From NCBI RefSeq assembly GCF_000277125.1, contig NC_016946.1, positions 1,302,001 through 1,366,000 on the forward strand: 64,000 nt of DNA, read 5' to 3'. The stretch is from Mycobacterium intracellulare ATCC 13950. Its GTDB lineage: Bacteria; Actinomycetota; Actinomycetes; Mycobacteriales; Mycobacteriaceae. This document shows, one piece after another, positions 12,593 through 33,527 of the stretch. Made by a program: the position numbers and the translations under genes. The number at the start of each line of letters is the position of its first letter. Position 1 is the stretch's first letter. The notes beneath the pieces are model-generated. The model was not told the DNA's origin, made no database searches, and saw nothing but the letters and a program-made list of their open reading frames with translations.

Positions 12593-12621
12593 TTCGTACG
12601 ACAGCAGCCGAGATATGTCAA
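12593..12621 (-). promoter_or_regulatory. Candidate cyp130 promoter with palindromic operator
   Basis: On the minus strand there is a perfect -35 TTGACA (12,621-12,616), a 17-bp spacer and a weak -10 TACGAA (12,598-12,593), 6 bp before the ATG at 12,586. The perfect 8-bp palindrome TCGTACGA at 12,594-12,601 overlaps the -10, a position where the neighbouring TetR protein could block transcription. The short leader implied suggests a near-leaderless transcript or use of the second ATG. Confidence 0.5.
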
Positions 12622-12658
12622 CCGCCCGGCGAGCCCAGCGCCCGGCCAGCCGGGCAGT

Positions 12659-12730
12659 TGTAGGTTCTCATTTTGCATGGCGAACTTCTCACAGGAATGG
12701 CGAACGCTTGGCGAATCCGTCATGAAGTTG
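12659..12730. other. Candidate left end of the Tn7-like element
   Basis: A TGTAGG at 12,659 is followed by three copies of TGGCGAA (12,678, 12,698, 12,709). Tn7-type elements start with TGT and carry short repeated TnsB-binding sites near each end. This lies in the 320-bp gene-free stretch between cyp130 and the IS element, which otherwise holds a 14-bp palindrome CGCGGTTAACCGCG at 12,820-12,833. A matching right end was not found, so the assignment is tentative. Confidence 0.25.
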
Positions 12731-12908
12731 AGAAAGTAGTTAGTCGCGCTAGTTGGTGCACCGCGCTTATTAACACTGTTTTCGCGCCAAAACCCGCAGA
12801 AGGTGAGACGCTGGGGTGTCGCGGTTAACCGCGTGGTGTGGTGATGTCGGAATCAGTCAGGGTTGATTTGAGTTCCGCGGCCGTTGCGTATCGGTCTGCG
12901 GCGGGGGG

Positions 12909-12932
12909 GACTGCCCCCAGTTTGGTTGACTC
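12909..12932 (+). repeat. Left inverted repeat of the IS3-family element
   Basis: Begins GACTGCCCCCAG and ends GGTTGACTC; pairs with 14,150-14,173 with three mismatches, at repeat positions 10, 15 and 16. Confidence 0.85.
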
Positions 12933-12972
12933 CTGACCTGTGAGGATTCGTCCTCGCTGGAAGGATCAGCTC

Positions 12973-13272
12973 GTGCCGAAACCGTTTCCTGCCGAGTTCC
13001 GAGCCGACGTCATCGCTGTGGCCCGCAAGGGCGAGGCGCCGCTGCGCCAGATCGCGAAGGACTTCGGCATCTCGGAAGCCTGCTTGCACCGCTGGCTCAA
13101 GATCGCCGACCGCCAAGACGGTGGCGACCGGGCCAGCACGCCATCTGCCGTTGCTGACGATGTAGCCGCGCAGCTGCGCGAGGCGCACAAGCGGATCAAA
13201 CTCCTCGAGCAGGAGGCCGAGGTGATGCGCCGCGCGGTCGGCTACCTGTCCCGGGACGCTAACCCAAAATGA
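12973..13272 (+). CDS. IS3-family transposase OrfA
   Basis: The 99-residue DNA-binding half of the transposase. It has a helix-turn-helix (RQIAKDFGISEACLHRWLKI, about 23-42) followed by a coiled coil or leucine-zipper-like stretch (LREAHKRIKLLEQEAEVMRR, about 70-90) used for multimerisation. GTG 12,973 gives the usual start MPKPFPAEFRADVIAVARKG; the open frame continues upstream to 12,940 without family similarity. It ends in ATGA overlapping orfB. A heptamer C CCA AAA just before the stop allows a -1 shift into orfB. Confidence 0.92.
   Translation: MPKPFPAEFRADVIAVARKGEAPLRQIAKDFGISEACLHRWLKIADRQDGGDRASTPSAVADDVAAQLREAHKRIKLLEQEAEVMRRAVGYLSRDANPK
13263..13269 (+). promoter_or_regulatory. 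Candidate -1 frameshift heptamer joining orfA and orfB
   Basis: C CCA AAA in the orfA frame fits the X XXY YYZ slippery pattern and sits directly before the orfA TGA stop. A slip would fuse OrfA to OrfB, the usual way IS3 elements make the full transposase. The alternative is simple re-initiation at the overlapping ATGA. Confidence 0.45.
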
Positions 13273-14135
13273 TGTACCCGCTGGTCCTCGACCTTGCCGC
13301 TGACGGGATCCCTGTTACGGTGACCTGCCGGGTCTTGGGATTCTCTACCCAGGCGTTCTACAAATGGCGCAAAGCACCGCTGTCGCAGCGAGATTGGGAC
13401 GATGCGCACCTGATCAACGCCGCCCGCGACATCCACGCCGACGACCCCGCATTCGGCTACCGATTCATCGCAGACGAACTTCCCGGGCGCGGGATCACCG
13501 CCGGTGAGAACCGCGTCGCACGGCTGTGTTCCCAGGAGCGCATCTGGTCGATCTTCGCCAAGAAACGTGGACTAAACCGTCGATCCGGACCACCGGTCCA
13601 CGACGACCTCGTCCAGCGTCAGTTCGGCGCCCCGGCCGCCAACCAGGTCTGGCTGGCCGATATCACCGAGCACCGCACCGACGAAGGCAAGCTCTACCTC
13701 TGCGCCATCAAAGACGTCCACTCCAACCGGATCGTGGGCTACTCGATCGACTCGCGAATGAAGTCTTCGCTGGCGGTGGCCGCCCTGGATCACGCCGTGG
13801 CGCTTCGCGCACCTGTCGCGACGATCGTTCATTCCGACAGGGGCAGCCAATTTCGGTCACGAAAATTCGTCCACGCACTGTCGCACAACGGGTTACACGG
13901 ATCGATGGGCCGGGTCGGTGCGTGCGGAGACAACGCCGCCATGGAGTCGTTCTTCGCCCTTCTGCAACGCAACGTGCTCGACCGGCGACGCTGGTCCACC
14001 CGAGCCGAACTACGCCTGGCGATCGTGACCTGGATCGAGCGGACCTACCACCGACGCCGCCGGCAACGCGCACTCGGCAGGCTCACCCCGATAGAGTTCG
14101 AACTGCTCCACACACCAGTCGCAACCGCGGCCTGA
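13269..14135 (+). CDS. IS3-family transposase OrfB (DDE integrase core)
   Basis: The 288-residue catalytic half is intact. The HTH_21-type N-terminal region ends in FGYRFIADELPGRGI, and the rve integrase core contains all three acidic residues: Asp in VWLADITEH, Asp in IVHSDRGSQF and Glu in NAAMESFFALL. The last two are separated by exactly 35 residues, the DD(35)E spacing of the family. The C-terminus has the usual RRRRQRALGRLTPIEFE. The element therefore looks capable of transposition. The start ATG overlaps the orfA stop. Confidence 0.93.
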   Translation: MMYPLVLDLAADGIPVTVTCRVLGFSTQAFYKWRKAPLSQRDWDDAHLINAARDIHADDPAFGYRFIADELPGRGITAGENRVARLCSQERIWSIFAKKRGLNRRSGPPVHDDLVQRQFGAPAANQVWLADITEHRTDEGKLYLCAIKDVHSNRIVGYSIDSRMKSSLAVAALDHAVALRAPVATIVHSDRGSQFRSRKFVHALSHNGLHGSMGRVGACGDNAAMESFFALLQRNVLDRRRWSTRAELRLAIVTWIERTYHRRRRQRALGRLTPIEFELLHTPVATAA

Positions 14136-14149
14136 AAATCACACCCCGC

Positions 14150-14173
14150 GAGTCAACTGAACTCGGGGCAGTC
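14150..14173 (-). repeat. Right inverted repeat of the IS3-family element
   Basis: Reads GAGTCAACTG...GGGGCAGTC on the plus strand and is the inverted partner of 12,909-12,932. Confidence 0.85.
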
Positions 14174-14190
14174 CCGGGGAGCAACGGTGT

Positions 14191-14856
14191 GTGCCGGCTG
14201 GTGAGGTGTCGCCGGCAGCATTGTTTCGCGCAGCGCCGTGGCGCACGTTCCGCTGGTATTTCGGGCAGCGTCACTACTCGGGCACGTATTGGTCGGCGAC
14301 TGAGCGCGATCACGTCATTTACGAGTCGCGCCTCGAGCTGGCGAACCTTATCCTGGCGGATTTTGATGTGACTGTGCATCGCATTGTGGCGCAGCCTTTT
14401 CGATTGACCGCCGAGGTCGACGGGCAGGAACGGCGCCACATTTTGGATTACCTTTGGGACAGCGACGAAGGACCGGTTGTGGTGGACGTCGTGCGCTCCG
14501 AAAGGGTGACTAATCCACGGATCGTGAGGTTGTGCGCGTGGACGAAGGACATCGTCGAATCGTTGGGCTGGTCCTACTTGGTGGTGAATGAGCCGGTCGC
14601 CGTGCGCCTCGCCAACGTGCGTTTCCTGGCGGGCTATCGGCGCGAGTGGCTCATAAACCAGGACGTTCTAGCTGAATTGCGTTGTCGGCGGGCAGATCTC
14701 GCCGGTCGATCCATCGACGAGGCTGAAAAGCTCATCGAGGGACACCCGCGACCACTGGTCCGTTCGGCGTTGCTGAGCATGCTGTGGCGCCACGAGCTCG
14801 AGGTAAACCTAGATGTTCGGCTTGAACGATCAACAGTGCTTGAGTGGGCATCGTGA
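14191..14856 (+). CDS. TnsA-like endonuclease subunit of the transposase
   Basis: In Tn7 the TnsA nuclease cuts the 5' ends of the element while TnsB cuts the 3' ends. This 221-residue protein has the family order: YESRLELANLILADFD with Glu45, RRHILDYLW with Asp86, and VVVDVVRSERV with Asp99. By comparison with typical actinobacterial TnsA (VVDVKP), the catalytic Lys position is Val101. That change, if real, would weaken or abolish 5' cutting and favour cointegrate formation. The rest, such as RFLAGYRREWL, is family-typical. Start GTG 14,191 lies just after the IS element; no convincing ribosome site is visible, so expression may depend on the IS. It overlaps tnsB. Confidence 0.82.
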   Translation: MPAGEVSPAALFRAAPWRTFRWYFGQRHYSGTYWSATERDHVIYESRLELANLILADFDVTVHRIVAQPFRLTAEVDGQERRHILDYLWDSDEGPVVVDVVRSERVTNPRIVRLCAWTKDIVESLGWSYLVVNEPVAVRLANVRFLAGYRREWLINQDVLAELRCRRADLAGRSIDEAEKLIEGHPRPLVRSALLSMLWRHELEVNLDVRLERSTVLEWAS

Positions 14857-16982
14857 AGCCCGCCGCTGTGCGCATAGGTGTGGGCACGCAATTCATCTAT
14901 GACGGGGAGGTCCTGGAAGTCATCGAGATGCATCCGGTCGCCGGCATGCCGGAGGTCCTTGCGAGAGAGCTGCGACGGGACACGGTGCACCGTTTCGCGC
15001 TCGATGAAGTGAGACCCTCTCAGAGATGCCGTCTCTTGAGCGACGACCTCGACATCGAAATCACCGGCTCCACCGAATACCCGCCATCGGTTAAATGGGC
15101 CGCGGTGTCCGAGCAAGCGCGCTGCGATGCACGTGATCGCGCAGCACACGTGCGCGAGGTTGTGACGGGTTATCGATCCGGTTCCGCTGCAACGGCGCTA
15201 CCGCACGAACCGCGGTCTGCTTACAAAAGCGCCAATCCGCGGATGAAACGTCTCGCCGTCAAGGCGAACGAGCTGGGCATCGGACGGCGTACGATCGAGC
15301 GCTGGGTTAGCGCCTATGAAGCCGAGGGCGAGGTCGGATTGCTGTCGGCGAAGGCGATTCATTCTGCTCTGGGCAGCAACAAGTTCGCGTTATTCGAACA
15401 GACCGCATCAGACATCATGCGCGAATACACGGACTTGTCGAAGCCGACGATGGACCTGATCATCAACCACGCCGAAGCACGATTGAACGCCACCTACGGT
15501 AAGGGTGTCGTGCGGTTGCCCTCACCAGCTACGGCGTATCGAATCTTGCGACGGCTTGAGCTGACCCAACCACTGTTTCGGCCGAGCACCAAGCGCATCC
15601 GTGACATCGCGGCCCGCCCGGATCGGCCGTACGGACAGTTGCACCCTTCCCGGCCGGGCGAGTACCTGCTGATGGACACCACACCGCTTGACGTGTACGC
15701 CATGGATCCACACACCCTGAAATGGGTAGGTGTGGAACTCACCGTGTCGATGGACTGGTACTCGCGGTGCATCACCGGTATGCGATTGAGCCCGACGACG
15801 AAGTCGATCGATGTCGCTGCAGTCCTTTATCAATCATTTCGCCCAGCGCCGGCCGGTGCGGACTGGCCCGCTGAGGCCGTGTGGCCACCGCACGGTGTGC
15901 CACGATCAGTGCTGGTCGAAGACGAAGCGCTTCACTGCAAAAGCGTGTTCGCGGCGGCGCCCGCAATCGTGCCGGAGACACTGGTCGTTGATCACGGCAA
16001 GATCTACGTCTCAGAGCAAGTGGCGAGCACCTGCCGGCAACTTGGCATCTCGATCCAACCCGCACGTGTGCGTGTCGCGTACGACAAAGGCCCCGTGGAG
16101 CGGTTCTTTCTGACCGTCCGTCAAAGGTTCTTGCAGGAGCTGCCTGGCTACAAGGGCCCTGATGTGTACTCCCGCGGCGCCGCTCCAGAACGAGAGGCCT
16201 TCTTCTTCATCGACGAGTTGGAGGCACTACTTCGTGAATGGATAGCCGTCTGCTACCACAATAAGCCGCACGACGGTGTTGGAGAGGTTGGCCTGTGGAA
16301 ACTGGGACTGAGCCCGGCGCAAATGTTCGAGCATGGCGTCTCGCGCGCCGGGTATATCGAGGCGCCGCGCGAACCCGACTTCGCCTATAACTTCCTGAAA
16401 GTGGAATGGCGGACGATTCAGCATTACGGTGTTCAGGTCGACAACCGTATCTACCGCGGTTCTGGACTGACGGGATATCGGCCGGGGGAGAAGAGTTCCT
16501 TCCGAGAACATCACGGGCAGTGGCCGTTTCATGTCGACCCTAACGACGTGCGCTTCATCTACTTTTTCGACTCCAAATCGACCCGCCGGTGGCACGCGTT
16601 GATGTGGGACCATGCCGATCTGTGTGATGGCCCAATGAACGAGGACGGGCTGTTATTCAGCCGTGAACTGGTGAAGGCTAAATACCGTTATTTTGACGAC
16701 AAGTTGGCATTGTCTGAATTTCTCGAACGCCGCAACCTTGGTCAAGGACACACCATGGCCGAGCGACGAGCTGCCCTGCGCTTGTCTCGCGAGCAGTCCA
16801 GTCTGGCCCTGGATGTCAAGCAAGCGGCGCACGTTCCCGAACTGCCCACGGCGAAAAGGATCCTCGGTGCACTGACCGCGACGGAGATTGGGCCAGATGA
16901 CCCGGGATCGGCCGACGAACTCGACGACGATCCGCGCATCGACGACGGTCACTTCTATGAGGATGTATTGGAGGACGTATGA
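14853..16982 (+). CDS. TnsB-like DDE transposase
   Basis: The main transposase of the element is about 709 residues long, a normal length for Mu/TnsB-type enzymes. The N-terminal part carries helix-turn-helix DNA-binding folds (NELGIGRRTIERWVSAYEAE near 145-165). The RNase-H-like core has Asp in YLLMDTTPLDV, Asp in LVVDHGKIY and Glu in DKGPVERFF. Counted from the alternative GTG at 14,844 they are residues 278, 383 and 419, so the last two are 35 apart, a classical DD(35)E. A Mu-type beta-barrel (YGVQVDNRIYRG) and an acidic C-terminal tail for TnsC contact follow. GTG 14,853 overlaps the tnsA stop. All catalytic residues are present. Confidence 0.9.
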   Translation: MKPAAVRIGVGTQFIYDGEVLEVIEMHPVAGMPEVLARELRRDTVHRFALDEVRPSQRCRLLSDDLDIEITGSTEYPPSVKWAAVSEQARCDARDRAAHVREVVTGYRSGSAATALPHEPRSAYKSANPRMKRLAVKANELGIGRRTIERWVSAYEAEGEVGLLSAKAIHSALGSNKFALFEQTASDIMREYTDLSKPTMDLIINHAEARLNATYGKGVVRLPSPATAYRILRRLELTQPLFRPSTKRIRDIAARPDRPYGQLHPSRPGEYLLMDTTPLDVYAMDPHTLKWVGVELTVSMDWYSRCITGMRLSPTTKSIDVAAVLYQSFRPAPAGADWPAEAVWPPHGVPRSVLVEDEALHCKSVFAAAPAIVPETLVVDHGKIYVSEQVASTCRQLGISIQPARVRVAYDKGPVERFFLTVRQRFLQELPGYKGPDVYSRGAAPEREAFFFIDELEALLREWIAVCYHNKPHDGVGEVGLWKLGLSPAQMFEHGVSRAGYIEAPREPDFAYNFLKVEWRTIQHYGVQVDNRIYRGSGLTGYRPGEKSSFREHHGQWPFHVDPNDVRFIYFFDSKSTRRWHALMWDHADLCDGPMNEDGLLFSRELVKAKYRYFDDKLALSEFLERRNLGQGHTMAERRAALRLSREQSSLALDVKQAAHVPELPTAKRILGALTATEIGPDDPGSADELDDDPRIDDGHFYEDVLEDV

Positions 16983-18140
16983 GTGCGACCGGGGTGGCGA
17001 GCCGGAAAAAGACCAGTAACTTAGATAACCTGACGCTGTCGCGCAAGGAGGGATGGCGTGAGTATGTCGAGGCGCCCCGGCGGATCAGGCCCGAAGAGCT
17101 CTCGAGAGGCCAGATCCGCCGTCTCGGCGATGCAGCAGCCGACATCTACAATCAGCGACGAGCCGACTGGCACAACAACATTGGCCCGTTGAGAACACCA
17201 CAGCTCGCGATGCTGCATGAAGATCTGTGGGACATCATGGATAGCAGCACGCAGGACGGAAATCATGCCAAGGGCGCAGTGGCAATAGACGGCTACCCCG
17301 GCTTAGGCAAGACCTGGGCGGCGGAAACCTTCGCGAAGGAGTTCCATAAGCGCGAGATTGGGCGGGCATGGTGAATTCACGGTCGCCGGGAACGAGCGTT
17401 GGCCGGTCTGCCGAATAGGTATGCGCGGCAATACCAGCATGAAGGACTTCAATGCCGCGCTGTGCGACTTTTATGCGCATCCAGGCTACCGTCGCGGAAA
17501 CAGAAGTAACGATCAACTAGGACGCCAAGCGCTCGATTGCGTACTAAGCTGCGAGACAAGGCTACTGATCATCGATGACCTCCACTTCCTGCACTGGCAG
17601 CGATCTGGTGGAGTGGAGATCAGCAACCATTTCAAGTATGTCTCCAACGAGTTCCCAGTAACGTTGCTGTTCATCGGCATTGGGCTCGGTGATCGGGGAG
17701 TATTGATGGAGGACCTGTGCTGCAGCCTCGAGGGAGCAGGCTACGGCGACATCGTGCTAGAACAAACGGCCCGGCGCACAACAATGTTGGAGATGCGGCC
17801 GTACGGTCTGCAAAACGACAAAGAACGATGCCAATGGAACGCGCTCCTAGCCACCGTGGAGCAGCGACTGGTCCTGGGGGCCAAACATCAGGGCATGCTG
17901 GTGGAAGATTTGTCAGAGTATCTCTATGAACGAAGCACCGGTCACATCGGATCGCTCATGGAGCTCATCCGGCGCGGATGTGCCCGCGCGGTTCGAACCG
18001 GCACTGAAACATTGAACCGAAAAATGTTGGACTCGTTCAGGATTGACAGTGCGGCCGAAAAGGCGCGGAAAGAACTCGCTGCAGCATTCCGCACTCGCCG
18101 CCTGCGAGCGCGATCTGCGCGACCGCCACGTGTGTCATAG
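16979..18140 (+). pseudogene. TnsC-like AAA+ ATPase, split by a one-base frameshift
   Basis: TnsC is the ATP-dependent regulator that links TniQ/TnsD-bound target DNA to TnsA/TnsB. The first frame (ATG 16,979, overlapping the tnsB stop as ATGA) carries Walker A IDGYPGLGKT and runs into TGA at 17,372-17,374. The second frame continues with GEFTVAGNERWPVCRIGM, Walker B RLLIIDDLHFL, and the AAA+ C-terminal helices to 18,140. Removing one G from GGGCGGGCAT at 17,360-17,369 joins them as REIGRHGEFT and gives a normal 386-residue protein. So it is a single-base insertion in a G-rich run: a true mutation, a read error, or less likely a programmed shift. No other damage is visible. Confidence 0.85.
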
Positions 18141-18159
18141 ATTCAGGCGCTGCTGAGCG

Positions 18160-20445
18160 ATGCCGCCACGCACACTGCCCATCAGGGTTGCTCCGGTCCC
18201 TGGAGAGGCCCTGGAGTCGTGGTTGGGTGCAATTGCGCGAAGGCTCGAAACTCCTTGGGGCCATCTACTCGCAGCGCTCGAGCCGACGCCAGCCGACCCG
18301 CCAGGTCTCGTTCGAGAGAACCTCACGGCCTGCCTTCACACCCGCGAAGCCGCAGCAATCGCCCATGCCACTGGGATCTGGCAAGCTGCGGTCGAAGCCT
18401 CGACGCTCGGTCACTACGACGGGCATCTGATCACCGTCGATCGATCCACCGGACGGGTGCGGTCGACCTGGAAGTCCGTGCGATCGAGATTTTGCCCGCA
18501 GTGTCTTCGCGTCTCGAACGGCCGCTGGCAATTATCGTGGCGACTTCCGTGGATCTTCACCTGCCAGGTACACAGTTGCCTGCTCGTCGATGTGTGCCCC
18601 GAATGCGCAATGTTTCAGCGTGTGATGCCGTGGTGGCTGCGGGCGCACGAGATTCCGGACCTCTGTCGATGTTCAAGGAATATTGAATTAGATGGTGAGA
18701 AGCGCCGATGCCTCGGCGATCTCGCGTATGCTGCGATGCCATACTTAGCCCGGCAGCACCCAATCATGTTGGCGCAGTGCCGTCTATCGGGACTGCTGTC
18801 GCGGTCGGTGATCGACTGTGGGATATATCAGGCGATGCCAACGTCGACCCTTGATTTCCTCCGAGACGTGCGACTGCTTTCGGCGCGAATGCTGTCGATG
18901 GCAAAGCTTGACTACATCGCAGAGTCACTCGAGATGCGTGGAGATAGTCATATTCGAGAGCATTCGGCAGCTTACGGTTCGAATCTGGACCGCTGGTCGA
19001 CACCTGGGGCCTTCGCGGCGAGCGCACCTGCGTTGGTCACCGGGCTTGGAATCATGCTGGCCCTCGATGTCATTGGACGTGAAAGTGTAGAAGATGCCGC
19101 GTCGCGGCTTCGCCCGCTCATAGAAAGGGCGAAGGCAACGGGACGAGAGCTCACACCGACGCTTCTTCGCTGCGGCGGCCCGACTGCAACGATGGACGCC
19201 GTTCACATCCGTGCATTCGAGCCTTCGTTCGGGGTGTTGGATAGGATGCGATACGGCACGGCGTCGTGCTTGCCGCGCTATCCGCGCACGTTGACCCCCG
19301 ACTCGTTGCGGTCAATCCCCACCTTGTTCTGGCGCGAGTGGTCTTTTCGCTTGACCGTCGGACGCGGCACTCTTTCCGTGATCCGCCCAGTGCTCTCGAT
19401 CATGCTCGTGTGCCACGGACATCAGACAACGGTGCCAAGTGCCGCCCGCAGACTGAGCCTGTCGATGACGGACAGGAGATTCGCCTACATGGTCGCAGAA
19501 CTGCGCCCTCACCGGTTGTGGCCAAACATCCTCGCCACGATGATGCGGCTGGCCGACTATCTTCGCGAAAACCCGAGTCCGATCGACTACCAACGACGTC
19601 GCCTGCTTGATTACCGAGACCTGCTGCCGGCCCAGCAATGGAATGCCATCTACGACAACGCTTATCACGGACCCGGCTGGAGAAACCGGGTCGGCGACAT
19701 TGCGCGATCATGGCTCTTTGAGCGGATAAGTATGCTGCCCCGAAGCGCTGCCCCATTTAAAACGACAACGCAATACCGCGATGCTGTGCGCGCCGAGATG
19801 ATCGCTATGTTCACACCCGCCCTGATCGATGCTCTGAACAGTGCCGGTCTGCAATACCTATCGCACAACAACGTGATAGGCGAGCCCCTTACCTGGGCGC
19901 CGCCGTTCTCCCTAATTAACGACCTTGAGTTGCCGCGACCGGACCTCAACTCGATTTCTGTCACGCAGGTGCACCAGCTAGCTCAGGATCCCTTAATGAC
20001 CACGGCTGCAATCGCGCGCAATTTGGCGGTTTCCGCCGACGTCGTGAGGTATCTGCTGGAGCAATTTCCGCTTGTGCGACCAACGACACGCCGGCGGATT
20101 CGCAACGACCCCGCCGAGACGCGCCTGACAAAAGCAGACCTTCTTCGCATGTACAACCGCGAGGGCATGACGCTGACGGCCATCGCGGCCGAGGTCGGCG
20201 TCGGGCGTGAGGCGGTCGGCGACCTAGCCCGAAAGTATGGCATCCCAATTCGTCACTACTACAGAATTGGTCCGGACATCTTGGACTGGCTGTACGAAGA
20301 ACACGTCGTCAAGCAGCGCACCCTCACCGCTATAGCTCAAGACGTCGGCGTCTCTCTTTCCGCTTTGAGTCGAGCAGCGAGAAAGTACGGCATCCTGGTC
20401 TGCCGAGACCCCCGCAAGCGGCGCCAGTCTTCTCAGCGTGCATGA
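18160..20445 (+). CDS. Long TniQ/TnsD-family target-selection protein
   Basis: TniQ/TnsD proteins bind the chosen target site and recruit TnsC. The start PRTLPIRVAPVPGEALESWL is the TniQ signature. A zinc-ribbon follows with Cys112, Cys115, Cys135, His138, Cys146 and Cys149 (FCPQCLRV...CQVHSC...CPEC). At 761 residues it is far longer than a minimal TniQ. The C-terminal third has at least two related helix-turn-helix repeats (LTAIAAEVGVGREAVGDLAR near 665-685 and LTAIAQDVGVSLSALSRAAR near 725-745), as in sequence-specific TnsD proteins. It follows tnsC by 19 bp in the same orientation and is convergent with the second tniQ. The target it recognises is unknown. Confidence 0.88.
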   Translation: MPPRTLPIRVAPVPGEALESWLGAIARRLETPWGHLLAALEPTPADPPGLVRENLTACLHTREAAAIAHATGIWQAAVEASTLGHYDGHLITVDRSTGRVRSTWKSVRSRFCPQCLRVSNGRWQLSWRLPWIFTCQVHSCLLVDVCPECAMFQRVMPWWLRAHEIPDLCRCSRNIELDGEKRRCLGDLAYAAMPYLARQHPIMLAQCRLSGLLSRSVIDCGIYQAMPTSTLDFLRDVRLLSARMLSMAKLDYIAESLEMRGDSHIREHSAAYGSNLDRWSTPGAFAASAPALVTGLGIMLALDVIGRESVEDAASRLRPLIERAKATGRELTPTLLRCGGPTATMDAVHIRAFEPSFGVLDRMRYGTASCLPRYPRTLTPDSLRSIPTLFWREWSFRLTVGRGTLSVIRPVLSIMLVCHGHQTTVPSAARRLSLSMTDRRFAYMVAELRPHRLWPNILATMMRLADYLRENPSPIDYQRRRLLDYRDLLPAQQWNAIYDNAYHGPGWRNRVGDIARSWLFERISMLPRSAAPFKTTTQYRDAVRAEMIAMFTPALIDALNSAGLQYLSHNNVIGEPLTWAPPFSLINDLELPRPDLNSISVTQVHQLAQDPLMTTAAIARNLAVSADVVRYLLEQFPLVRPTTRRRIRNDPAETRLTKADLLRMYNREGMTLTAIAAEVGVGREAVGDLARKYGIPIRHYYRIGPDILDWLYEEHVVKQRTLTAIAQDVGVSLSALSRAARKYGILVCRDPRKRRQSSQRA

Positions 20446-20531
20446 GAGTCGTTTACCGCTCTGCGTGACCAGCTCCGTGACTACCTACCGCGTCGAGAGT
20501 CGGCGAGCGGCGGTTGCCTGCACGCTGCCGA

Positions 20532-21725
20532 TCACACGGCGCTGAGTTGCGGCCCAGTCCCCGGGAATGGTCGAGTCGTCCGATGTTGGTGCAAACTGCG
20601 CGACGAAAGCACCGTCCGTCGCAGGGCGTCAAGTGACGGGCTGTGCCCGATGTTCCAACAGTTCCGGGAATCCATCGGTGAGAATCCACGCCGGCGCATC
20701 GACGTCGTCAGCCATTGCAGGCGCTGGGCGGCGATCTCGGTGTCATCAGCCTGGAGGACGGGCATCGCCATACAAGCGGTGACGGCATCGGCGGCGGCGT
20801 TCGAGCACGCTACCCGCGCACCGCCACCCGTGACTAAAGGCCGCGCAAACCCGTTCTTTGCTGCGAGCACGAACTGCTCCCAGAGCAGATCGGAGATCGG
20901 GGCGGCCACATGAAAGGGCTGCGCGTAGCGCAACATCCAACTGCCCAGCGTGTGTAGATCTCCCATGAATATCGTCGATGGCACTGGCGACGACCCGTAG
21001 ATGCCACCCAACGCATAGCCCGCGCGCAGCACGCGGAGAAGCTCGCATTGGGTCACCACCGCCGGATCTGTCCCGAGGCGTATGGCAGGAGCACCCGACA
21101 ACGGCTCATGGCACCGTGGTCCCTCGCCGGATCGGGTCACACCCCGGGTGCACGACCCCAGCTTCGGTACCTCGTTGAAGCGAGGCGGTGCCGTGCGCTG
21201 CAGACCGCCGCAGACGCGGCACGCGTCGGCGAGCAAGGATCCATGCGTCGGGCACACGAATGCCCACCGCAACCGCCACCACACCCGCCATCTGCCACCG
21301 CGCTCCTCAAGGCACTTGGGACAGAACCGCGAACCAGTCATGCGCAGTGAGGCTGCAGACGGACGTTGCCAGCTGGTGTCGTTGATCCACGGTTGCAGAG
21401 TCATCGCCTGAAGCAGGCAGGGTTCGACGCCGGTGCAGTAGCTGATGGTGTCCCCCTGCCCCGGTGTCAGCGACACGTTGGCCCGCCCCGCCCAGTGCGA
21501 GGCCGTATTACCCCGCGCTCCCGAAATATCTACTGCGCGCAAAATTTGACCCCAGGTCGCGTCTGTGCGGCTAGCCAACGCTTCCAGCCAGGACTCAAGG
21601 CTCTCTTCTGGCAACGGTTTCACCCGGATCGGCAGAGTCCGCACTGCGCGCCAAGGCTCTACGCCGCCGCCGCGAGGGACGACCTCCCGTGGAAGCACCT
21701 CGGCGACCATCAACCCAGAATGCAC
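20532..21725 (-). CDS. Second, short TniQ-family protein
   Basis: A 397-residue TniQ paralogue on the opposite strand. VRTLPIRVKPLPEESLESWL matches the start of the long copy, and the zinc motif FCPKCLEERGGRW...CPTHGSLLADACRVC is intact. It lacks the C-terminal helix-turn-helix repeats, so it resembles minimal TniQ rather than TnsD. The open frame starts at GTG 21,725, inside the 42-bp palindrome; ATG 21,710 or GTG 21,644 (directly at VRTLPIR) are alternatives. The palindrome is placed to control its expression. It could select a second class of targets or modulate the long copy. The C-terminal 40 residues are Arg/Ser-rich and look unconserved. Confidence 0.8.
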   Translation of the reverse strand: MHSGLMVAEVLPREVVPRGGGVEPWRAVRTLPIRVKPLPEESLESWLEALASRTDATWGQILRAVDISGARGNTASHWAGRANVSLTPGQGDTISYCTGVEPCLLQAMTLQPWINDTSWQRPSAASLRMTGSRFCPKCLEERGGRWRVWWRLRWAFVCPTHGSLLADACRVCGGLQRTAPPRFNEVPKLGSCTRGVTRSGEGPRCHEPLSGAPAIRLGTDPAVVTQCELLRVLRAGYALGGIYGSSPVPSTIFMGDLHTLGSWMLRYAQPFHVAAPISDLLWEQFVLAAKNGFARPLVTGGGARVACSNAAADAVTACMAMPVLQADDTEIAAQRLQWLTTSMRRRGFSPMDSRNCWNIGHSPSLDALRRTVLSSRSLHQHRTTRPFPGTGPQLSAV

Positions 21726-21750
21726 TACTAGTAGTGCATTCTGGGTTGAT
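21709..21750. repeat. 42-bp perfect palindrome at the second tniQ start
   Basis: Each 21-bp arm is the exact reverse complement of the other, with no spacer: ATCAACCCAGAATGCACTACT, centred between 21,729 and 21,730. The centre ACTACTAGTAGT is shared with the site at 21,934. It could form a cruciform, serve as a regulator operator, or mark an inverted joint. Confidence 0.9.
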
Positions 21751-21933
21751 TCGCCATTGCCGTGCTGCGCGTTTGGGATGTCGGGATTTCGGGCTCCGGC
21801 GTCCTAATTGTGCAGAGTCAAGTCTCGCCCCCGCCAATCCGAGCAAACTCGCGTATAGAGGTGAGTGAACGCGTCACATGCACCGAGATCCGGGGGGTCC
21901 ACGCTCGGTGGGCGGCCATACTGCAAATTTAGA

Positions 21934-21945
21934 CCTACTAGTAGG
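21934..21945. promoter_or_regulatory. Palindromic operator candidate upstream of the Xre gene
   Basis: CCTACTAGTAGG is a perfect 12-bp palindrome about 40 bp before the likely Xre start. On the minus strand it reads TCTGCCCTACTAGT, which recurs exactly at 22,600-22,613. The position suggests autoregulation by the Xre protein. Confidence 0.55.
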
Positions 21946-21982
21946 GCAGACTTTTCCGGGATCTGCAGCAGTACTGGTATGC

Positions 21983-22243
21983 GTGCCGACGCGCCCCAGT
22001 CAAAACGACCCCAAACGGGTCGCTGTGTGGGAGAGACGGCGCCGTCAGGTGGGCACTCGAATACAGACCCTGCGCATCGACCGCGGCTACACCCAAGAGG
22101 AGCTTGCATTGAGGTCCGGTGTTTCACGCAACGTGTTAATCGACCTCGAGTACGGCCGCCGCGGCATCCTGCACGAAAGACTATTCGATATCGCGAAGGC
22201 CCTCGGCGTGTCCGCTTCAGAGCTGCTCGAGGGCATAAAATGA
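21983..22243 (+). CDS. Xre-family helix-turn-helix regulator
   Basis: A small Cro/CI-type DNA-binding protein of about 86 residues. The helix-turn-helix is RGYTQEELALRSGVSRNVLI followed by DLEYGRRGILHERLFDIAKA, a complete HTH_3 domain with little else. GTG 21,983 is chosen because the open frame upstream (to 21,878) runs through the palindrome at 21,934 and shows no domain. It probably binds CTACTAGTAG-type sites near itself and the second tniQ. Its stop overlaps the start of a decayed paralogue as ATGA. In mobile elements such proteins often control transposition or conjugation genes; that role is inference here. Confidence 0.8.
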   Translation: MPTRPSQNDPKRVAVWERRRRQVGTRIQTLRIDRGYTQEELALRSGVSRNVLIDLEYGRRGILHERLFDIAKALGVSASELLEGIK

Positions 22244-22522
22244 CTGATGTCGGAGCGCTCGACCAACTCGGTCGAGATTTGTTGTCAACAGTGTTTCCTC
22301 GAGCTGAGGACTCGCGGGCTCGGAGGGCAGGCGGACGCTCTATCGCGCTGCACGCGGGTGTACCCCGCAATGTGCTGATCCATGTCGAGTTCGGCCGGCG
22401 TGGCCTGCTTTACGCAGCTTTTTGACCTCGCGGACGCCCTCGAGGCGCCGGTCGCTGATCTGCTTGTCGTACCCGAACCGGCACCAGCGCGTAAGCGACA
22501 CTCCAAGCCTCCTACGAAATAA
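22240..22522 (+). pseudogene. Degenerate second Xre regulator
   Basis: This is a diverged copy of the preceding gene. Its first frame gives IALHAGVPRNVLIHVEFGRR, aligning with LALRSGVSRNVLIDLEYGRR of the intact copy, then stops soon after 22,420. A one-base shift near 22,418 continues as LFDLADALEAPVADLLVVPE and ends in a basic tail KRHSKPPTK at TAA 22,522. The N-terminal helix region is also eroded. It looks like a tandem duplicate under decay. Confidence 0.65.
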
Positions 22523-22599
22523 TGCTGCATTCCGGTTGACGTAGACGGGTGTCGACGTCTGCGGCCAAATGCGCGATCCAATGCAACACAACAACGTGT

Positions 22600-22613
22600 T
22601 CTGCCCTACTAGT
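22600..22613. promoter_or_regulatory. Third CTACTAGT-type site
   Basis: TCTGCCCTACTAGT matches the minus strand of the Xre-proximal site over 14 bases but its right half (GCTACA) breaks the palindrome. It lies in the 278-bp gap between the Xre remnant and the frame at 22,801, where a promoter for the following genes would be expected. Confidence 0.45.
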
Positions 22614-22800
22614 GCTACACTCTGCAATGGGGACCTGGTCTGCTGGCTGACCTGAAGAGTCGGACAACGGGTGAGGATTCGGCCGCGCAAGGGGCGGTTC
22701 ACCGCCGATCAGACGCCCCGCAGTGCCGCCGGCCAGGTCCACCCGCCACCGCGGCCACCTTGCCGCTCCCGGGCGGGCGCAAGCGTGACGGAGGTTGGGC

Positions 22801-23226
22801 ATGTCACCACATGGTTGGCGGGAGTGGCTCGACACCGCCAACAACCTCATACCCGACCAGCGAGGCGCGCACCGCAGAGCCATTGCCTACAGCACGTTGG
22901 AGGGCTGGAATCCTGATGCGCGATCCGTGAAACGGCTCGCCCAATTCAGCAGTGGGGCAACCACCTTCACCGAATACCGGGCGATCGTGCTAGATGGAGC
23001 GCGAGTTGGTCTCCGGCTACCCGAACGGTGGTTGATGAAGCAGACATTGAGGCCAAACACTATTCACAATAGGTCGACGTTGAAGGGTTTTCGGTCACGG
23101 CGCTCAGGGGGTGATTCCACGGTCGGCGAGCAGTCGCTCTTGCTGCGGGTCGATATCGATCACCGGTCAACTCGAAATCAATCTGACGCCATGGCGATCT
23201 CATGCCAGCCGCGACGGTATGGATGA
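22801..23226 (+). CDS. Hypothetical island protein
   Basis: I do not recognise this frame. ATG 22,801 follows a GGAGG-like GACGGAGG at a plausible distance and encodes MSPHGWREWLDTANNLIPD. The first 80 residues have ordinary composition (RAIAYSTLEGWNPDARSVKR). After about residue 85 the sequence becomes Ser/Arg-rich and unconvincing, so the true protein may have been shorter, or the 3' part may be a remnant joined by mutation. It sits downstream of the third CTACTAGT site and 9 bp before the next gene. Confidence 0.35.
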   Translation: MSPHGWREWLDTANNLIPDQRGAHRRAIAYSTLEGWNPDARSVKRLAQFSSGATTFTEYRAIVLDGARVGLRLPERWLMKQTLRPNTIHNRSTLKGFRSRRSGGDSTVGEQSLLLRVDIDHRSTRNQSDAMAISCQPRRYG

Positions 23227-23235
23227 CAACCGGAG

Positions 23236-24066
23236 ATGCATATGGTCGATTTCGCCCATGTCCGGAGTGAGGCCGAGTACCGAGAACAGCTCGAGCATGC
23301 TCGCGCCGAGGCGCGCCGCCGCTACCGCGACCACCTGGCGGCGGCATTCGAGCTGCACCGCTGCCCGCAACCCGAGACGCTCGCCGACCTCGCGCTCAAG
23401 GCACTCACGGATTGGCGCTACATCGACAGCGGCGAGCGATGCCGGTGCGGCTGCCACCCGCGGCTACCCGAAAGTGATTTTCACGACTACGGATTTGATT
23501 GCGTGTGCACACGCACGCCCGAGGATCGCCGCCGCTCGTGGCAGAAGTGGCGCCAGGGCCTGGCGGCGATCTGGGAATCGCCAGAGGGCCAACAGATCAA
23601 AGCCGACGCGCAAACCGCCGAAGCCGACCTGCAGGCCTGGCTGGCGGGCCAGAGCGATGTCATAGTGCGCAGCCATGGCGGGTGGTTCCCCGAAGAGTGG
23701 ACCGGAGAAGTCGACGGCCACAGCTTCTACTTCTGTGAACGCCGCGGCGAGTGGCGCATCGAACTCGACCTGCGGCCAAGCGGTCGCTTCGTCCGTACTC
23801 TGACTGAGGACGACAGTGATGGTGCGGGCCAATGCTACGAGCGTGAACTGGACGAAGGTGATGTAATCGCCTCTGGCACAATCGATGTTGAGGGATACGG
23901 CAGCACCCCAGCTCAGCGGGCAGACTTCATTATCGATACCATCCGCGTCCATCTCGCCCGCCAAGCATGCACACTGCACCGCGACAACCTGCCCTCGATA
24001 CAAGCGTCGCTGGGCGGCGTGCTCAGCTGGTGCCCAGCTTGCGGAACCCGCCTATCCACCTCGTGA
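23236..24066 (+). CDS. Hypothetical cysteine-rich island protein
   Basis: A 276-residue protein of unknown function with good codon usage. The N-terminal 60 residues are helical and charged (REQLEHARAEARRRYRDHLA). A Cys/His cluster follows at 69-91 (CRCGCHPRL...DCVC) that could bind zinc. The middle has an acidic beta-rich stretch (SHGGWFPEEWTGEVDGHSFY). The C-terminus ends in another possible zinc knuckle, WCPACGTRLSTS. ATG 23,236 or 23,242 can start it. It lies between an unrecognised frame and an AAA+ ATPase, all on the plus strand, in the likely cargo section. Confidence 0.7.
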   Translation: MHMVDFAHVRSEAEYREQLEHARAEARRRYRDHLAAAFELHRCPQPETLADLALKALTDWRYIDSGERCRCGCHPRLPESDFHDYGFDCVCTRTPEDRRRSWQKWRQGLAAIWESPEGQQIKADAQTAEADLQAWLAGQSDVIVRSHGGWFPEEWTGEVDGHSFYFCERRGEWRIELDLRPSGRFVRTLTEDDSDGAGQCYERELDEGDVIASGTIDVEGYGSTPAQRADFIIDTIRVHLARQACTLHRDNLPSIQASLGGVLSWCPACGTRLSTS

Positions 24067-24216
24067 CCGCAGCAACCAACGCACGTTTTCAGTGCCAAAC
24101 CGCCACCGGCGAAGCGCTGAGATCGATACGCGGCCGTCGACACGAAAACCCGTTGACGACCCGGCAGACAGGTGAGAATCTGTCAAGCTGTCCTGTAGCC
24201 GAATCACCCCAAAGCG

Positions 24217-25608
24217 ATGAACCGCAACGCTAGCGGATCGAACGATCTGCCTGCCGGGCTCACCCGAAGCGCGGACCCAGTCCGCCGACCCATCACCGAC
24301 GTCAACGGCTGGCTGGACAGCCAGAATGGCGACGTGCGATCAGCGCTGTGCGCACTCGGGGAGTTGCTGGTCGGCGTCGCCGAACAAGACAGTGCCGAGA
24401 ACGCTGAACGATTCACCGCCCGCTGCCTCGGCGTACCGGACTGCGGGCACCTGCTCGACGAGGAACGCCCCTTGCATCCGGTATCACGACTGACCACCGC
24501 ACTGGCGTTGGCGCAATGGATCGAGGAACACAGGCCGGACTGCGAGATCGGTCCAGGCGAATCCACCCACCCCCCAACGTGGACGCAGACCAAGATCGGC
24601 GCCCGACGCTACCGCCACCCACTCTGCCTGCGTGTGCACTTTCCCGCCGGGACGCTGCTCGACGACACCGGATGCATCATCCACATCGAGACCCGTGAGA
24701 ACGTCATGCGGTCCGCTCACGTGAGTGCCTTCGTGACGCCCGATAAGCAAGCAGATGCCTGCGCGCTATTGGATCGGCTCGCCGAACGCGCCAACGCACT
24801 CAACCCGTACCGCGGCCGCGCGGTGCGCGCCACCTACCAACGCGGACTGAGCCTGGACGTCATCGACCTGCCCGCAACCGCGACGCGCCACAACGTCATC
24901 GTCGGCGACGAGGTGTGGGCCGAGGTCGATCTTGGTGTCACCGCGGTACGCGACCGCCACAGCGTGCTCAACGCGCACGGCTTGGGGTCCCGCCGCGGGG
25001 TTTTGCTGTGCGGACCACCCGGCACCGGCAAGTCAGCGATTAGCGCGGTCGTGGCCAGCGAAGTCGTCGGCGACTTCACCGTCATCTACATCGAGGCCAA
25101 GGCGGGTGCTGAGCTGCTGACCGCCGTCGTCGAGGAGGCGCAGCGCCTCGACGGTCCGGTGCTGCTCGTCCTGGAGGACGTCGACCTCTGGTGCCGGGAC
25201 CGCTCGACCGGTGATGGGGGACTGTCGGAACTGTTGCAGGCAATGGACATCGAACCCAACGCCCGCATCCTGACACTGGCGTCCACGAACGATGCCGCCA
25301 CATTGGATAAGGCGGCGATCCGCACGGGGCGATTCGACTCCATCGTCGAGGTCGGTTATCCAAACAGCACGCAGGCTGCCCGGATCCTCTCGGTGTTGAT
25401 CAACGAGATTCCCGGCGGTCAGACCATTGACATTGCGACCGTCGTAGCCGCGCTGCCTGAAAATACCAGCGGCAGTGACCTTCGTGAAGTTGTGCGCCGT
25501 GCCGTGCTCGCCCCCGGTGACGAGGGAAGCATCAGTACCGCGACGTTGCTATCCGAAGTCGGCACCGGGCGATACCGGGCCCAGTTGTCGTCAGGGATGT
25601 ACCTGTAA
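24217..25608 (+). CDS. AAA+ ATPase of the FtsH/CDC48 type
   Basis: A 463-residue protein with an uncharacterised N-terminal half (about 1-240) and one classical AAA domain. Walker A is GPPGTGKS near 266-273 and Walker B is LLVLEDVDLW near 316-325. A sensor LASTND and an arginine-finger motif AIRTGRFDSIVEVGYP follow, then the small helical lid with SGSDLREVVRR. This is a classic-clade remodelling ATPase without protease, membrane or ubiquitin domains. The N-terminal half probably binds a partner. No nuclease or protease gene lies beside it. Single AAA proteins of this kind are frequent in mobile islands, some in defence roles, but nothing here proves that. ATG 24,217 is the only reasonable start. 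Confidence 0.85.
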   Translation: MNRNASGSNDLPAGLTRSADPVRRPITDVNGWLDSQNGDVRSALCALGELLVGVAEQDSAENAERFTARCLGVPDCGHLLDEERPLHPVSRLTTALALAQWIEEHRPDCEIGPGESTHPPTWTQTKIGARRYRHPLCLRVHFPAGTLLDDTGCIIHIETRENVMRSAHVSAFVTPDKQADACALLDRLAERANALNPYRGRAVRATYQRGLSLDVIDLPATATRHNVIVGDEVWAEVDLGVTAVRDRHSVLNAHGLGSRRGVLLCGPPGTGKSAISAVVASEVVGDFTVIYIEAKAGAELLTAVVEEAQRLDGPVLLVLEDVDLWCRDRSTGDGGLSELLQAMDIEPNARILTLASTNDAATLDKAAIRTGRFDSIVEVGYPNSTQAARILSVLINEIPGGQTIDIATVVAALPENTSGSDLREVVRRAVLAPGDEGSISTATLLSEVGTGRYRAQLSSGMYL

Positions 25609-26022
25609 CGAGCCACCGCGACAGCATCCCCGAGCTCAGCTAGTAGAACGGGGCCCCGTCGGCGAGCTGTGCCTCCCGAGCTACGCCACGTCACCAGAGT
25701 CGAAGGGGGACTGGAACTCCGAGCTTCGGTGGCCAAAACCGGGCATTATTCTCCTGTGGCCGCGACGCCGACCTTATCGATCCGACGTAATTGGTCATTA
25801 TCGGGGCTTCTCCGACGCGGGATAATCTCCGAACCATGCGAAGTGAAGGCTCGGACTGCCGCGCTGGTTGGCTGTGACGAGCCGAGGTTTTGGCCGCATC
25901 CGGTCCATTGCTAATCACAGTTCGTATGCATTAACCATCGGCGCCCCAGGGCACGATTGTGGTGGACAGGCTTCGTCAAGGCGACGTGCGGCGCTGCGCT
26001 CCGGGGAAGGGTCGAGTAGCCG
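25609..26022. other. Gene-free stretch at the probable right side of the island
   Basis: The 414 bp between the AAA+ gene and a convergent short-chain dehydrogenase show no convincing gene. A half-site CTAGTAG occurs at 25,640-25,646, echoing the palindromes near the Xre gene. This is where the right end of the mobile element would be expected, but no match to TGTAGG or TGGCGAA repeats was found. Confidence 0.5.
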
Positions 26023-26865
26023 TCAAGCTCCGGTGGCGCTGATGTCTGGGGTGTCGAACATCTTGCCGAGGTCGAGTTGACCGGACTGCACCGCGCCGAA
26101 GAATCCGCCATCGGTAACCAATGCTTCGCCGTTGATGTAGCTCGATCGGGGGCTGTTAAGGAAGATCAGAGGCCACGCCTGTTCCTCGGCGGTTGAGCGC
26201 CGACGGATCGGCCCGACGAAGGCGTCAATGATGTTCTGCCCGGCGAATTCCACGAAATGGGGCAGCATCGCGGTGTCGGTGGGGCCGGGGTTGATGCAGT
26301 TGAGCCGGATGTCATCGGTGATCAGCGTGGCGGCCCGGGACGCCACCCAGGCGTTGATCGCCTTCTTGGAAAGTGGGTATGCACCGACCGCTCCCATCTC
26401 GTCATTAGCCACACACCACCGCTTGCCCTCATCGAACCCGTCGGTGGACACCAGTTCCATAAGCTGCTCCAGCTCCTTTTGCCACCCCATGGCGGCATTG
26501 GACGCGACCACCGCGATCGCACCGCCGGCAGGAATCTTGGGCAGGACCAGGTCCACCAGGTGCCGGGCTCCGACGAAGTTGACCAGCAACACGTCCAGGC
26601 CAGAGAACGGCGGCCCAGGCAGGCCCGCGCAGCCAAAATAACCATGGACGGGCCCGTCGATGGACTCGGCTGCCCGCTCGATCGATGTGCGATCACGCAA
26701 GTCCACTTCCAGCGCCCGGTCGACCGACGCCTCGGTAGGCCGCACGTCGAGCGCAGTGACGCGTGCCCCTAGCTTGGTCAAGATCGTTGCCGTCGCTGCG
26801 CCCATGCCCGACGCGGCGCCGGTAACCACCACATGGCGCCCCGCATATCCCAGTACGTCTTCCAT
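26023..26865 (-). CDS. Short-chain dehydrogenase/reductase
   Basis: A 280-residue NAD(P)-dependent oxidoreductase of the classical SDR fold. It has the cofactor motif VVTGAASGMGAATA, the DVRP/DLRD acidic positions that favour NAD(H), and a late motif YPLSKKAINAWVASRAATL carrying the active-site Tyr and Lys. Between them AIAVVASNAAMGW holds the catalytic Ser. The C-terminal INGEALVTDGG is typical. ATG 26,865 is preceded by GGAGGAAAC. It resembles 3-alpha-(hydroxysteroid)-dehydrogenase-like members by the YPLSKKA arrangement, but substrate assignment is not safe. It is divergent from an aldehyde dehydrogenase gene. Confidence 0.88.
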   Translation of the reverse strand: MEDVLGYAGRHVVVTGAASGMGAATATILTKLGARVTALDVRPTEASVDRALEVDLRDRTSIERAAESIDGPVHGYFGCAGLPGPPFSGLDVLLVNFVGARHLVDLVLPKIPAGGAIAVVASNAAMGWQKELEQLMELVSTDGFDEGKRWCVANDEMGAVGAYPLSKKAINAWVASRAATLITDDIRLNCINPGPTDTAMLPHFVEFAGQNIIDAFVGPIRRRSTAEEQAWPLIFLNSPRSSYINGEALVTDGGFFGAVQSGQLDLGKMFDTPDISATGA

Positions 26866-26949
26866 GTTTCCTCCAACCAAGTTGACCGCGAAGATGATGA
26901 CTACCGGTATACAGATATAACAGGTGTCCAAAGAGGAACATTATATTCT

Positions 26950-26959
26950 CCCTATAGGG
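26950..26959. promoter_or_regulatory. Palindrome in a divergent promoter region
   Basis: CCCTATAGGG, a perfect 10-bp palindrome, lies midway in the 198-bp space between divergently transcribed SDR and aldehyde dehydrogenase genes, in an AT-rich patch. It may be an operator or part of a promoter. Confidence 0.3.
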
Positions 26960-27063
26960 ATACGCTGTTGCTAGCGTCTTCTGGCATCGGCACGTCTGCG
27001 GCAGTAGGCCCGACTGGGCGATGCAGCGGGCGTCAAATTCTTCAGAGTTGGAGGTAATGCGCG

Positions 27064-28593: not shown

Positions 28594-28828
28594 GTTGCAA
28601 TCACTATCACGTGTGCGATAGGCAGGCTGGCTTTGATTCAGCATGTTAACCTCGTGAGACAGCACCTGAGCGTTTTGCACTGGTAGAACATGGTGGGCGT
28701 CATGCAAGAATTTGCTCACTCAAACCGAGGGCATGAGGGAGACAAGTGGAGGCTCAATGGGGGTCATCTGTCTCCGAACGGACCTGTGGTGTGCCGTTGA
28801 ACGAGAAGCAGGTTGTTGAGGGCCGTGC

Positions 28829-29623
28829 ATGACTGGGCAGCTGGGAGCGCCTCGTCCCTTCACCTATCAACACGATGGGTTGACGTTGGCCTATGCGGTG
28901 GTCGGCGACGGACCTCAGCCGGTCTTGTTCGTCCACGGCGCGACCGCCACGGGCGAGTTCGAGTGGGCTGGCCTGGCCGCGGCCCTGGGGCCGGGGTACC
29001 GATGCATCCTGCCCGATCTACGCGGCCATGGCCGATCGGAATTCCGATCGACGGCTACGACGGGGACCGCAGTCCGCTCCGACCTGCGGTATCTCATCGA
29101 GTATTTGGACCTGGGCCGCCCGCACATCGTGGGTTTCTCCTATGGTGCGGAGATTGCGCTGACGCTGGAATTGGAGAACCCGGGAACGGCCCGATCCTTG
29201 ATCCTCATTTCTCCCGGGACGGGACGCCCCAGCGACTACCGCGCTCCTCGGCTGGAGCATCTGCACCGCACGTGGCCGTTTGCGCTACGACGCTTGCATG
29301 AGGCCGTGCACGGGCCCGAGCACTGGCGCGACCTGGTCACCGCGCTACACGAGGACAGCGTGTCTTGGCCCGAATTGAGCGAGGAGACGTTGGCCGGCAT
29401 CGCGTGCCCGATTCTGTTGATGGCAGGGGATCGGGACGAACTCACGCGTCAGCAGCAGGGTCGGCGATTCGCGCAAGTCAATCCGCGGGCCCGGTTTGTC
29501 GAGATAGCGGGCGCGGCGCATTCCGCCCACCAGAAGTGCCCAGATACGGTCAGGGGAGTTATCGGCGACTTCCTGGCCGAAGTCGACCTTGAGAGAGCGG
29601 AGCGTCATGGCGCGGTCAACTGA
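28829..29623 (+). CDS. Alpha/beta hydrolase
   Basis: A 264-residue soluble serine hydrolase. The oxyanion motif is VLFVHGATA. The nucleophile elbow is GFSYGAE (Ser near residue 110), the acid is probably Asp in MAGDRDEL, and the His lies in AAHSAHQKCP. LRGHGRSEF after strand 4 is typical of the epoxide-hydrolase/lactonase side of the fold. ATG 28,829 starts the domain cleanly. It overlaps the following TetR gene by 17 bp, so the two are one transcription unit. It may open a ring or cleave an ester or C-C bond in the local catabolic route; the reaction cannot be told from sequence. Confidence 0.88.
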   Translation: MTGQLGAPRPFTYQHDGLTLAYAVVGDGPQPVLFVHGATATGEFEWAGLAAALGPGYRCILPDLRGHGRSEFRSTATTGTAVRSDLRYLIEYLDLGRPHIVGFSYGAEIALTLELENPGTARSLILISPGTGRPSDYRAPRLEHLHRTWPFALRRLHEAVHGPEHWRDLVTALHEDSVSWPELSEETLAGIACPILLMAGDRDELTRQQQGRRFAQVNPRARFVEIAGAAHSAHQKCPDTVRGVIGDFLAEVDLERAERHGAVN

Positions 29624-30296: not shown

Positions 30297-30314
30297 CAGC
30301 CGAGGCGGCACTTC

Positions 30315-31538: not shown

Positions 31539-31579
31539 TTTGTCTCCTTTGCGGTTTCGGCTTCATCCTGGAGAGGGGC

Positions 31580-33512: not shown

Positions 33513-33527
33513 GAACGGAGAGCTGTA

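Follow-up and report, generated by a model that had tools for sequence, protein, structure and literature searches.

The Tn7-like transposition module in the chromosome of Mycobacterium intracellulare ATCC 13950 raises a simple question: is it a compact mobile element in its own right, or does it belong to something far larger? The window analysed here is a stretch of 64,000 nucleotides (NC_016946.1, positions 1,302,001 to 1,366,000), and the positions given below are those of the window unless the genome is named. The initial annotation of this window rightly recognized a Tn7-like module in a mycobacterial chromosome and gave the interval 12621..25650 for it. This interval is not the element, whose left end lies at 12659 and whose right end, outside the window, is at genome position 1,570,194, which makes it about 20 times longer. 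We consider it highly probable, given the ends, flanks and relatives described below, that a single giant Tn7-like transposon of 255,536 bp (genome C1:1,314,659-1,570,194, of which 51,342 bp lie inside the window) was inserted here as one unit. The tns module is only the left edge of this 255,536-bp element.

The boundaries become evident when the flanking DNA is compared with that of related genomes. To the left of 12659 lies a chromosomal stretch, conserved in relatives, that carries a DEAD-box helicase gene and a P450 gene (11345-12586). In Mycobacterium nebraskense, the P450-side stretch runs straight into DNA that resumes in the window genome only at 1,570,242, some 255 kb away, and the alignments of four relatives to the joined flanks agree. 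That an island interrupts synteny here had been noted from the start, with kgd and cyp130 named as the neighbours; the interruption is real, but it falls beyond the P450 gene and before the gene that follows it in relatives. Position 12659 opens with TGTAGGTTCTCA, a terminus found in identical form in three 13.0-kb elements of another genome (G278), and an inverted TGTAGGTTCTCA end at genome position 1,570,194 closes the element on the right. The five bases immediately outside are GCAGT on the left and GCCGT on the right. Furthermore, the motif TTCTCA-N5-9-TGGCG has six matches in the 288 kb around the element, all confined to its two ends, with none in the interior or the flanks. Two inward-facing copies are at the left end, three start no more than 84 bp from the right terminus, and one is 0.6 kb further in. 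By comparison, 60 dinucleotide-preserving shuffles gave a mean of 0.9 matches and a maximum of 3. The element has the paired ends, each bearing several motifs resembling TnsB sites, that are expected of a Tn7-like transposon. The features that define the element inside the window are as follows.

12654..12658, no strand: left copy of the target duplication, GCAGT (the right copy, GCCGT, lies outside the window)
12659..64000, plus strand: part of the element inside the window, based on its ends, the empty-site comparison and its occurrence at two sites
12659..12734, plus strand: left transposon end, with a TGTAGG terminus and putative TnsB-binding motifs at 12665 (+) and 12686 (+) and a degenerate one at 12734 (-)

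Other boundaries were considered and rejected. End and site patterns searched for inside the window revealed no right end there, and the search was extended beyond it. An element as small as 12621..25650 is incompatible with the match between the window and Mycobacterium scrofulaceum, which continues at 99.7% identity far beyond that interval, and a drop in identity near 39.1 kb was dismissed as the right boundary because homology goes on past it.

Nearly the whole unit also resides at another chromosomal place, common to M. scrofulaceum and M. nebraskense, where GCCGC is present on both sides. Since these two species share the site, two insertions are documented rather than three. When coverage is counted from alignments of at least 300 bases at 85% identity or more, the M. 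scrofulaceum contigs cover 249,185 of the 255,536 bp, in order over four contigs, and 0 bp of the left flank, and the pieces fetched from M. nebraskense cover 221,886 bp. From 12659 inward the module is 99.7-100% identical to both species, outward of this position the DNA is unrelated, and the identity extends to the outermost bases of both ends. The element as a whole is mostly 96-100% identical between the window genome and these species, whereas the orthologous chromosomal DNA beside it reaches 81-87% identity in the left flank and 77-89% in the right, a difference that points to recent transfer of the element between species. In genome G274, the site used in M. scrofulaceum and M. nebraskense is uninterrupted: matches to the left flank (83%) and the right flank (99.9%) overlap by exactly 5 bases. 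DNA blocks this large thus seem to pass from one species to another in a single piece. It had been proposed at the outset that comparison with relatives might reveal an empty site and a 5-bp duplication, and that the same genes at unrelated places without common ends would speak against a mobile element. The ends, the empty site and the duplications are now defined (4 of 5 bases match here, GCCGC/GCCGC elsewhere), and two other species carry the same two ends.

The two sites of this element differ, and no single attachment gene is seen. At both, the far end lies about 50 bp beyond a stop codon. A target rule of the type 'gene 3' end' would fit these two sites, but our filter picked no such gene at the sites of the G278 elements.

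A second giant was found by searching plasmids for TnsB. Plasmid pP7a of M. avium hominissuis (NZ_CP076857.1; 396,301 bp), whose TnsB is 66.9% identical to that of the window, is typed as mobilizable with a MOBF relaxase and has annotated conjugal transfer and type VII secretion genes. Its element is bounded by AGCGG at either end and spans 188,232 bp, from 390,489 on the tns side to 202,258 at the far end. Plasmids NZ_AP012556.1, NZ_CP076859.1 and NZ_CP059000.1 have the corresponding empty site, where both 1.5-kb flanks are 100% identical and overlap by exactly 5 bases. The 5-bp target duplication expected of a Tn7-like transposon is perfect in M. scrofulaceum, M. nebraskense and pP7a. The frames of tnsA, tnsB, tnsC and the first TniQ gene are open on pP7a, and the second TniQ gene is split around an annotated IS256 transposase. 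Like the 255-kb element, the pP7a element combines the same module, including a helix-turn-helix (HTH) gene, a 276-amino-acid protein and an AAA ATPase, with mce-type genes and lipid and aromatic cargo. Unlike it, the pP7a element is plasmid-borne, has a split second TniQ gene, and carries other genes between the left end and tnsA. In the 50 kb compared, the two have hardly any cargo DNA in common. The PLSDB gene table, which lists protein genes only, leaves the pP7a element unmarked as a transposon. The region from its left end to tnsA (L205, NZ_CP076857.1 380525-389485) contains genes annotated as a helicase, an ATPase, a sigma factor and a ThiF-like protein, and is perhaps a defence island.

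The left edge also holds the gene set of a Tn7-like transposon, and its features are as follows.

12907..14176 (edges approximate), plus strand: IS3-family insertion sequence with open reading frames at 12940-13272 and 13269-14135, located inside the 5' end of tnsA
14191..14856, plus strand: tnsA (NCBIfam TnsA_like_Actin, E 1e-67), its 5' end displaced by the IS3 element
14844..16982, plus strand: tnsB, DDE transposase with an open frame (D278, D383, E419)
16979..17374, plus strand: first piece of tnsC, with the Walker A-like motif GYPGLGKT
17358..18140, plus strand: second piece of tnsC in another frame, with the Walker B-like motif LLIIDD
18160..20445, plus strand: TniQ/TnsD-like target selector of 761 amino acids (Pfam 1.3e-18)
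20532..21725, minus strand: second TniQ gene, 397 amino acids (Pfam 1.4e-21)
21709..21750, no strand: perfect 42-bp palindrome at the start of the second tniQ
21878..22243, plus strand: HTH regulator whose relatives accompany the module in several relatives and on pP7a
23236..24066, plus strand: 276-amino-acid protein, unmatched in Pfam, NCBIfam and PADLOC, that forms a pair with the following gene both here and on pP7a
24217..25608, plus strand: AAA ATPase of 463 amino acids with weak similarity to anti-phage IetA models

Open reading frames and profile searches bear out tnsA, tnsB, tnsC and a TniQ/TnsD gene in standard order, as initially annotated. The genes named at that time are all present, and the second TniQ gene and the IS3 element in tnsA had been overlooked. 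TnsA, the endonuclease subunit, retains 221 residues here and has 246 amino acids in M. nebraskense DNA, which is free of the insertion sequence; the IS3 element, about 1.27 kb long, is missing at that place in both M. nebraskense and M. scrofulaceum. The perfect DD(35)E reported earlier for TnsB is confirmed, as exactly 35 residues separate D383 from E419, and among PDB sequences the best match to TnsB is a TnsAB fusion (E 1.2e-15), with more TnsB entries below it. The gene for the AAA+ regulator TnsC, which matches the TniB profile at 22.0 bits, just below the cut-off of 22.4, is broken here: a frameshift divides it into two overlapping open reading frames that correspond to an intact single frame of 386 codons in M. 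scrofulaceum and M. nebraskense. In 28 of the 31 loci compared, some of them retrieved twice, a single open frame matches the two pieces. Target selectors of the TniQ/TnsD type are encoded by two genes. Searches of PDB sequences with TnsC, TnsA and the TniQ proteins of 397 and 761 amino acids gave no relevant match. Among the module genes there are no Cas genes or CRISPR array, and the module DNA has no match among phages. A motif scan, the only search made for a resolvase, gave no convincing tyrosine or serine resolvase hit.

Because tnsA is interrupted and tnsC is frame-shifted, the copy in the window appears to have lost the ability to move. All three chromosomal copies are visibly damaged: the tnsB genes of M. 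scrofulaceum and M. nebraskense run into other DNA, each at a different point, a pattern that insertions would produce. Two further observations concern the genes behind the module. Copies of a CTACTAG motif lie around the HTH gene, near 21936 and 22607, and might together with the 42-bp palindrome form an operator. In addition, the pair formed by the 276-amino-acid orphan and the AAA ATPase behind the HTH gene is conserved in both giants (window 23236-25608, pP7a 364351-366719).

The ends and gene set suggest how such a unit would move. TnsB, together with TnsA and the ATPase TnsC, would act on two ends 255 kb apart, each formed by a TGTAGG terminus and inward-facing repeats resembling TnsB sites. 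A TniQ protein, two of which are encoded, would pick the target, and joining would then produce the 5-bp duplication. These proteins probably carry out the transposition. Transfer between species may well occur by way of large plasmids, because the 188,232-bp relative sits in a plasmid that has conjugation genes.

A peculiarity of TnsA could bear on this mechanism. In the best 120 of 2,562 relatives, the position that corresponds to the active-site lysine of Tn7 TnsA is occupied by V, I or M in all 120, and the next residue is R in 119. Among 13 aligned TnsA sequences, DVKP or NVKP is found in L035, L039-L041 and L044, and DVVR in the other eight. The fold of TnsA from a close relative is that of Tn7 TnsA. 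One branch of actinobacterial Tn7-like elements thus appears to have lost the TnsA lysine and kept the fold. We tentatively propose, at close to but short of even confidence, that giant Tn7-like transposons form a class in mycobacteria, represented here by units of 188 and 256 kb, whose members incorporate entire catabolic regions of the chromosome, mce uptake operons among them, and carry these as single units between the large plasmids and chromosomes of different species. With the TnsA lysine lost, they may move by copying, through cointegrates, rather than by cut-and-paste. If true, movement by copying would suit a load of this size.

The load itself begins just past the AAA ATPase gene. 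A simple gene caller places 220 genes in the 255.5 kb.

25938..64000, no strand: start of the catabolic cargo, which continues outside the window (left edge set where G274 homology begins)

Profiles of 41 genes outside the module gave a family match for 34 and none for seven at the limits used. The families include Mce, MlaE, acyl-CoA dehydrogenases, CoA ligases and transferases, enoyl-CoA hydratases, Rieske oxygenases, aldehyde dehydrogenases, P450 and 4-hydroxy-2-oxovalerate aldolase. Judged by their profiles, these enzymes and uptake proteins belong to types employed in the catabolism of lipids and aromatic compounds, and they are superfamily calls because most NCBIfam scores fall under the curated cut-offs. 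The mce-type cluster at 72-83 kb has a counterpart near 257-267 kb, with 65-70% similarity between the two. An 8-kb piece of the cargo is ordinary mycobacterial DNA in other settings: it has matches at E 1e-250 or better in 32 of 294 genus genomes (its own included), with all 8 kb at 100% in G274 and 6.6 kb at 91% in genome G261. On plasmids, window positions 14191-39190 gave a 76.5% match on pP7a and one short match, and one 20-kb cargo piece gave a 76.6% match of 1 kb and two matches of about 40 bases; for neither query was there a plasmid copy at high identity. The G274 DNA beyond the cargo has no plasmid match.

It is important to note that several findings weigh against a single transposon that was inserted as one unit. 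The duplication at the window-genome site matches in only four of five bases, TnsA of this branch is without the lysine expected at its active site, and identity across the element drops to 86-92% in the stretch at 39-42 kb. Both comparison genomes, M. scrofulaceum and M. nebraskense, are draft assemblies, with the M. scrofulaceum element in 4 contigs and 6,351 bp uncovered. In G274, the empty site is part of a short GCC repeat, and the last 40 bases of the left flank are poorly alike; the single GCCGC there consequently rests on alignment. Furthermore, the cargo also exists outside the element. G274 holds it on two contigs at 25.9-33 kb (96%) and 67.7-217.8 kb (99.2-99.4%), the ranges compared in window coordinates, with no close match to the tns module (the best being 71% over 557 bases in tnsA, plus the IS3 element at 91%). 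The G274 contig leaves the homology at 217,797, and the right 50 kb is not adjoining. G261 matches the 40 kb compared at 87-94%. The cargo in G274 is either the remnant of a decayed copy or a region of the kind that the transposon captured.

The second of these options would be explained if two related Tn7-like insertions had once flanked a chromosomal catabolic region, lost their inner ends, and left the outer ends to move everything between them. What moved would still be one unit, but it would be a captured piece of chromosome rather than a long-lived element. The different context of the G274 cargo, with edges near 25,938 and 217,797, agrees with this origin, as do the back-to-back elements that exist in genomes G293 and G209. 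Even so, the interior has no remaining motif resembling a TnsB site, and G274 could be a decayed copy instead. We regard a composite origin as a real possibility, albeit one that remains on the doubtful side.

A small Tn7-like element might alternatively have occupied each site and exchanged its interior for the long one only afterwards, through homologous recombination or conjugal transfer. Recombination over long tracts is known to occur between mycobacteria. However, the identity that reaches the outermost bases would require the exchange to stop exactly at both tips, and the 188-kb insertion of pP7a lies in flanks 100% identical to those of empty plasmids, such that this route appears quite improbable. 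An unrelated island (an integrative conjugative element, an integrated plasmid or the product of a rearrangement) that has the remnant of a Tn7-like element at one edge would fit the size and the broken module in the window genome, where conjugation and integrase genes across the element were sought by motif scan only, but matching Tn7-like ends at both empty-site junctions and the 5-bp duplications make it scarcely credible.

How does a single transposon of 255,536 bp compare with known systems? Tn7 is 14 kb. Relative to this TnsABC and TnsD system, the element is about 18 times the size, has two TniQ genes and no single attachment gene that we could see, and carries a replacement of the TnsA lysine. 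The enzymes and hosts of fungal Starships differ from those of Tn7-like elements. These transposons (PMC12153272) are also giant and cargo-carrying, and offer an analogy only. The original suggestion that the system is of an undescribed kind does not hold, as its sequence very likely places it in a surveyed, experimentally uncharacterised actinobacterial group (Benler et al. 2021 clade 2; NCBIfam NF033179). It resembles clade 2 in its TnsA_like_Actin match and its many actinobacterial relatives, and TnsB matches of at least 43% identity over at least 600 of 712 residues are present in 36 of 297 sampled genus genomes (its own included; one with an internal stop). According to Benler et al. 2021 (PMC8649781), the largest survey that we found, this clade of Tn7-like transposons is dominated by Actinobacteria and without experimental characterisation, 125 kb were scanned on each side of tnsB, median lengths were 14-29 kb, and the longest element was 140 kb. 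A unit of 255 kb exceeds both that maximum and the search radius and would therefore have been missed by design. No giant Tn7-like element in mycobacteria appeared in the titles and abstract openings of the open-access literature searched (subscription papers fell outside this scope). Likewise, a word search shows no 'Tn7' in the main text of PMC7426613, PMC12803027, PMC8190616 and PMC5206733, and the passages seen of PMC12231136 mention Tn7-like elements only in connection with CRISPR.

The size of a Tn7-like unit documented by its two ends, an empty site and a second place of insertion is now raised to 255 kb. This would give medically and environmentally relevant mycobacteria a concrete route to gain some two hundred genes in one step, and it becomes testable how large a unit TnsABC can transpose and what part TnsA plays.

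Smaller relatives reveal other arrangements. The three 13.0-kb elements of G278 belong to the same family, occupy three places and are 99.95-99.98% identical to each other. Their flanking 5-mers (gttcc, cggat; L043-L048) match crosswise between copies and not within a copy, as if flanks had been swapped by recombination between copies. An 88-kb region of G209:C31 (L062, L140-L147) has ten TGTAGGTTC ends with at least two site cores, in both orientations, and two more without. Some end pairs there are back to back with few bases between them (40296/40302, 65110/65115), and the region has the look of Tn7-like elements arrayed in tandem at a single site. Finally, G293:C1 (L059, L130-L133, L060) contains two elements back to back, the right end of one (offset 89538) and the left end of the other (89544) being five bases apart, and in the second copy both tnsB and tnsC are split.

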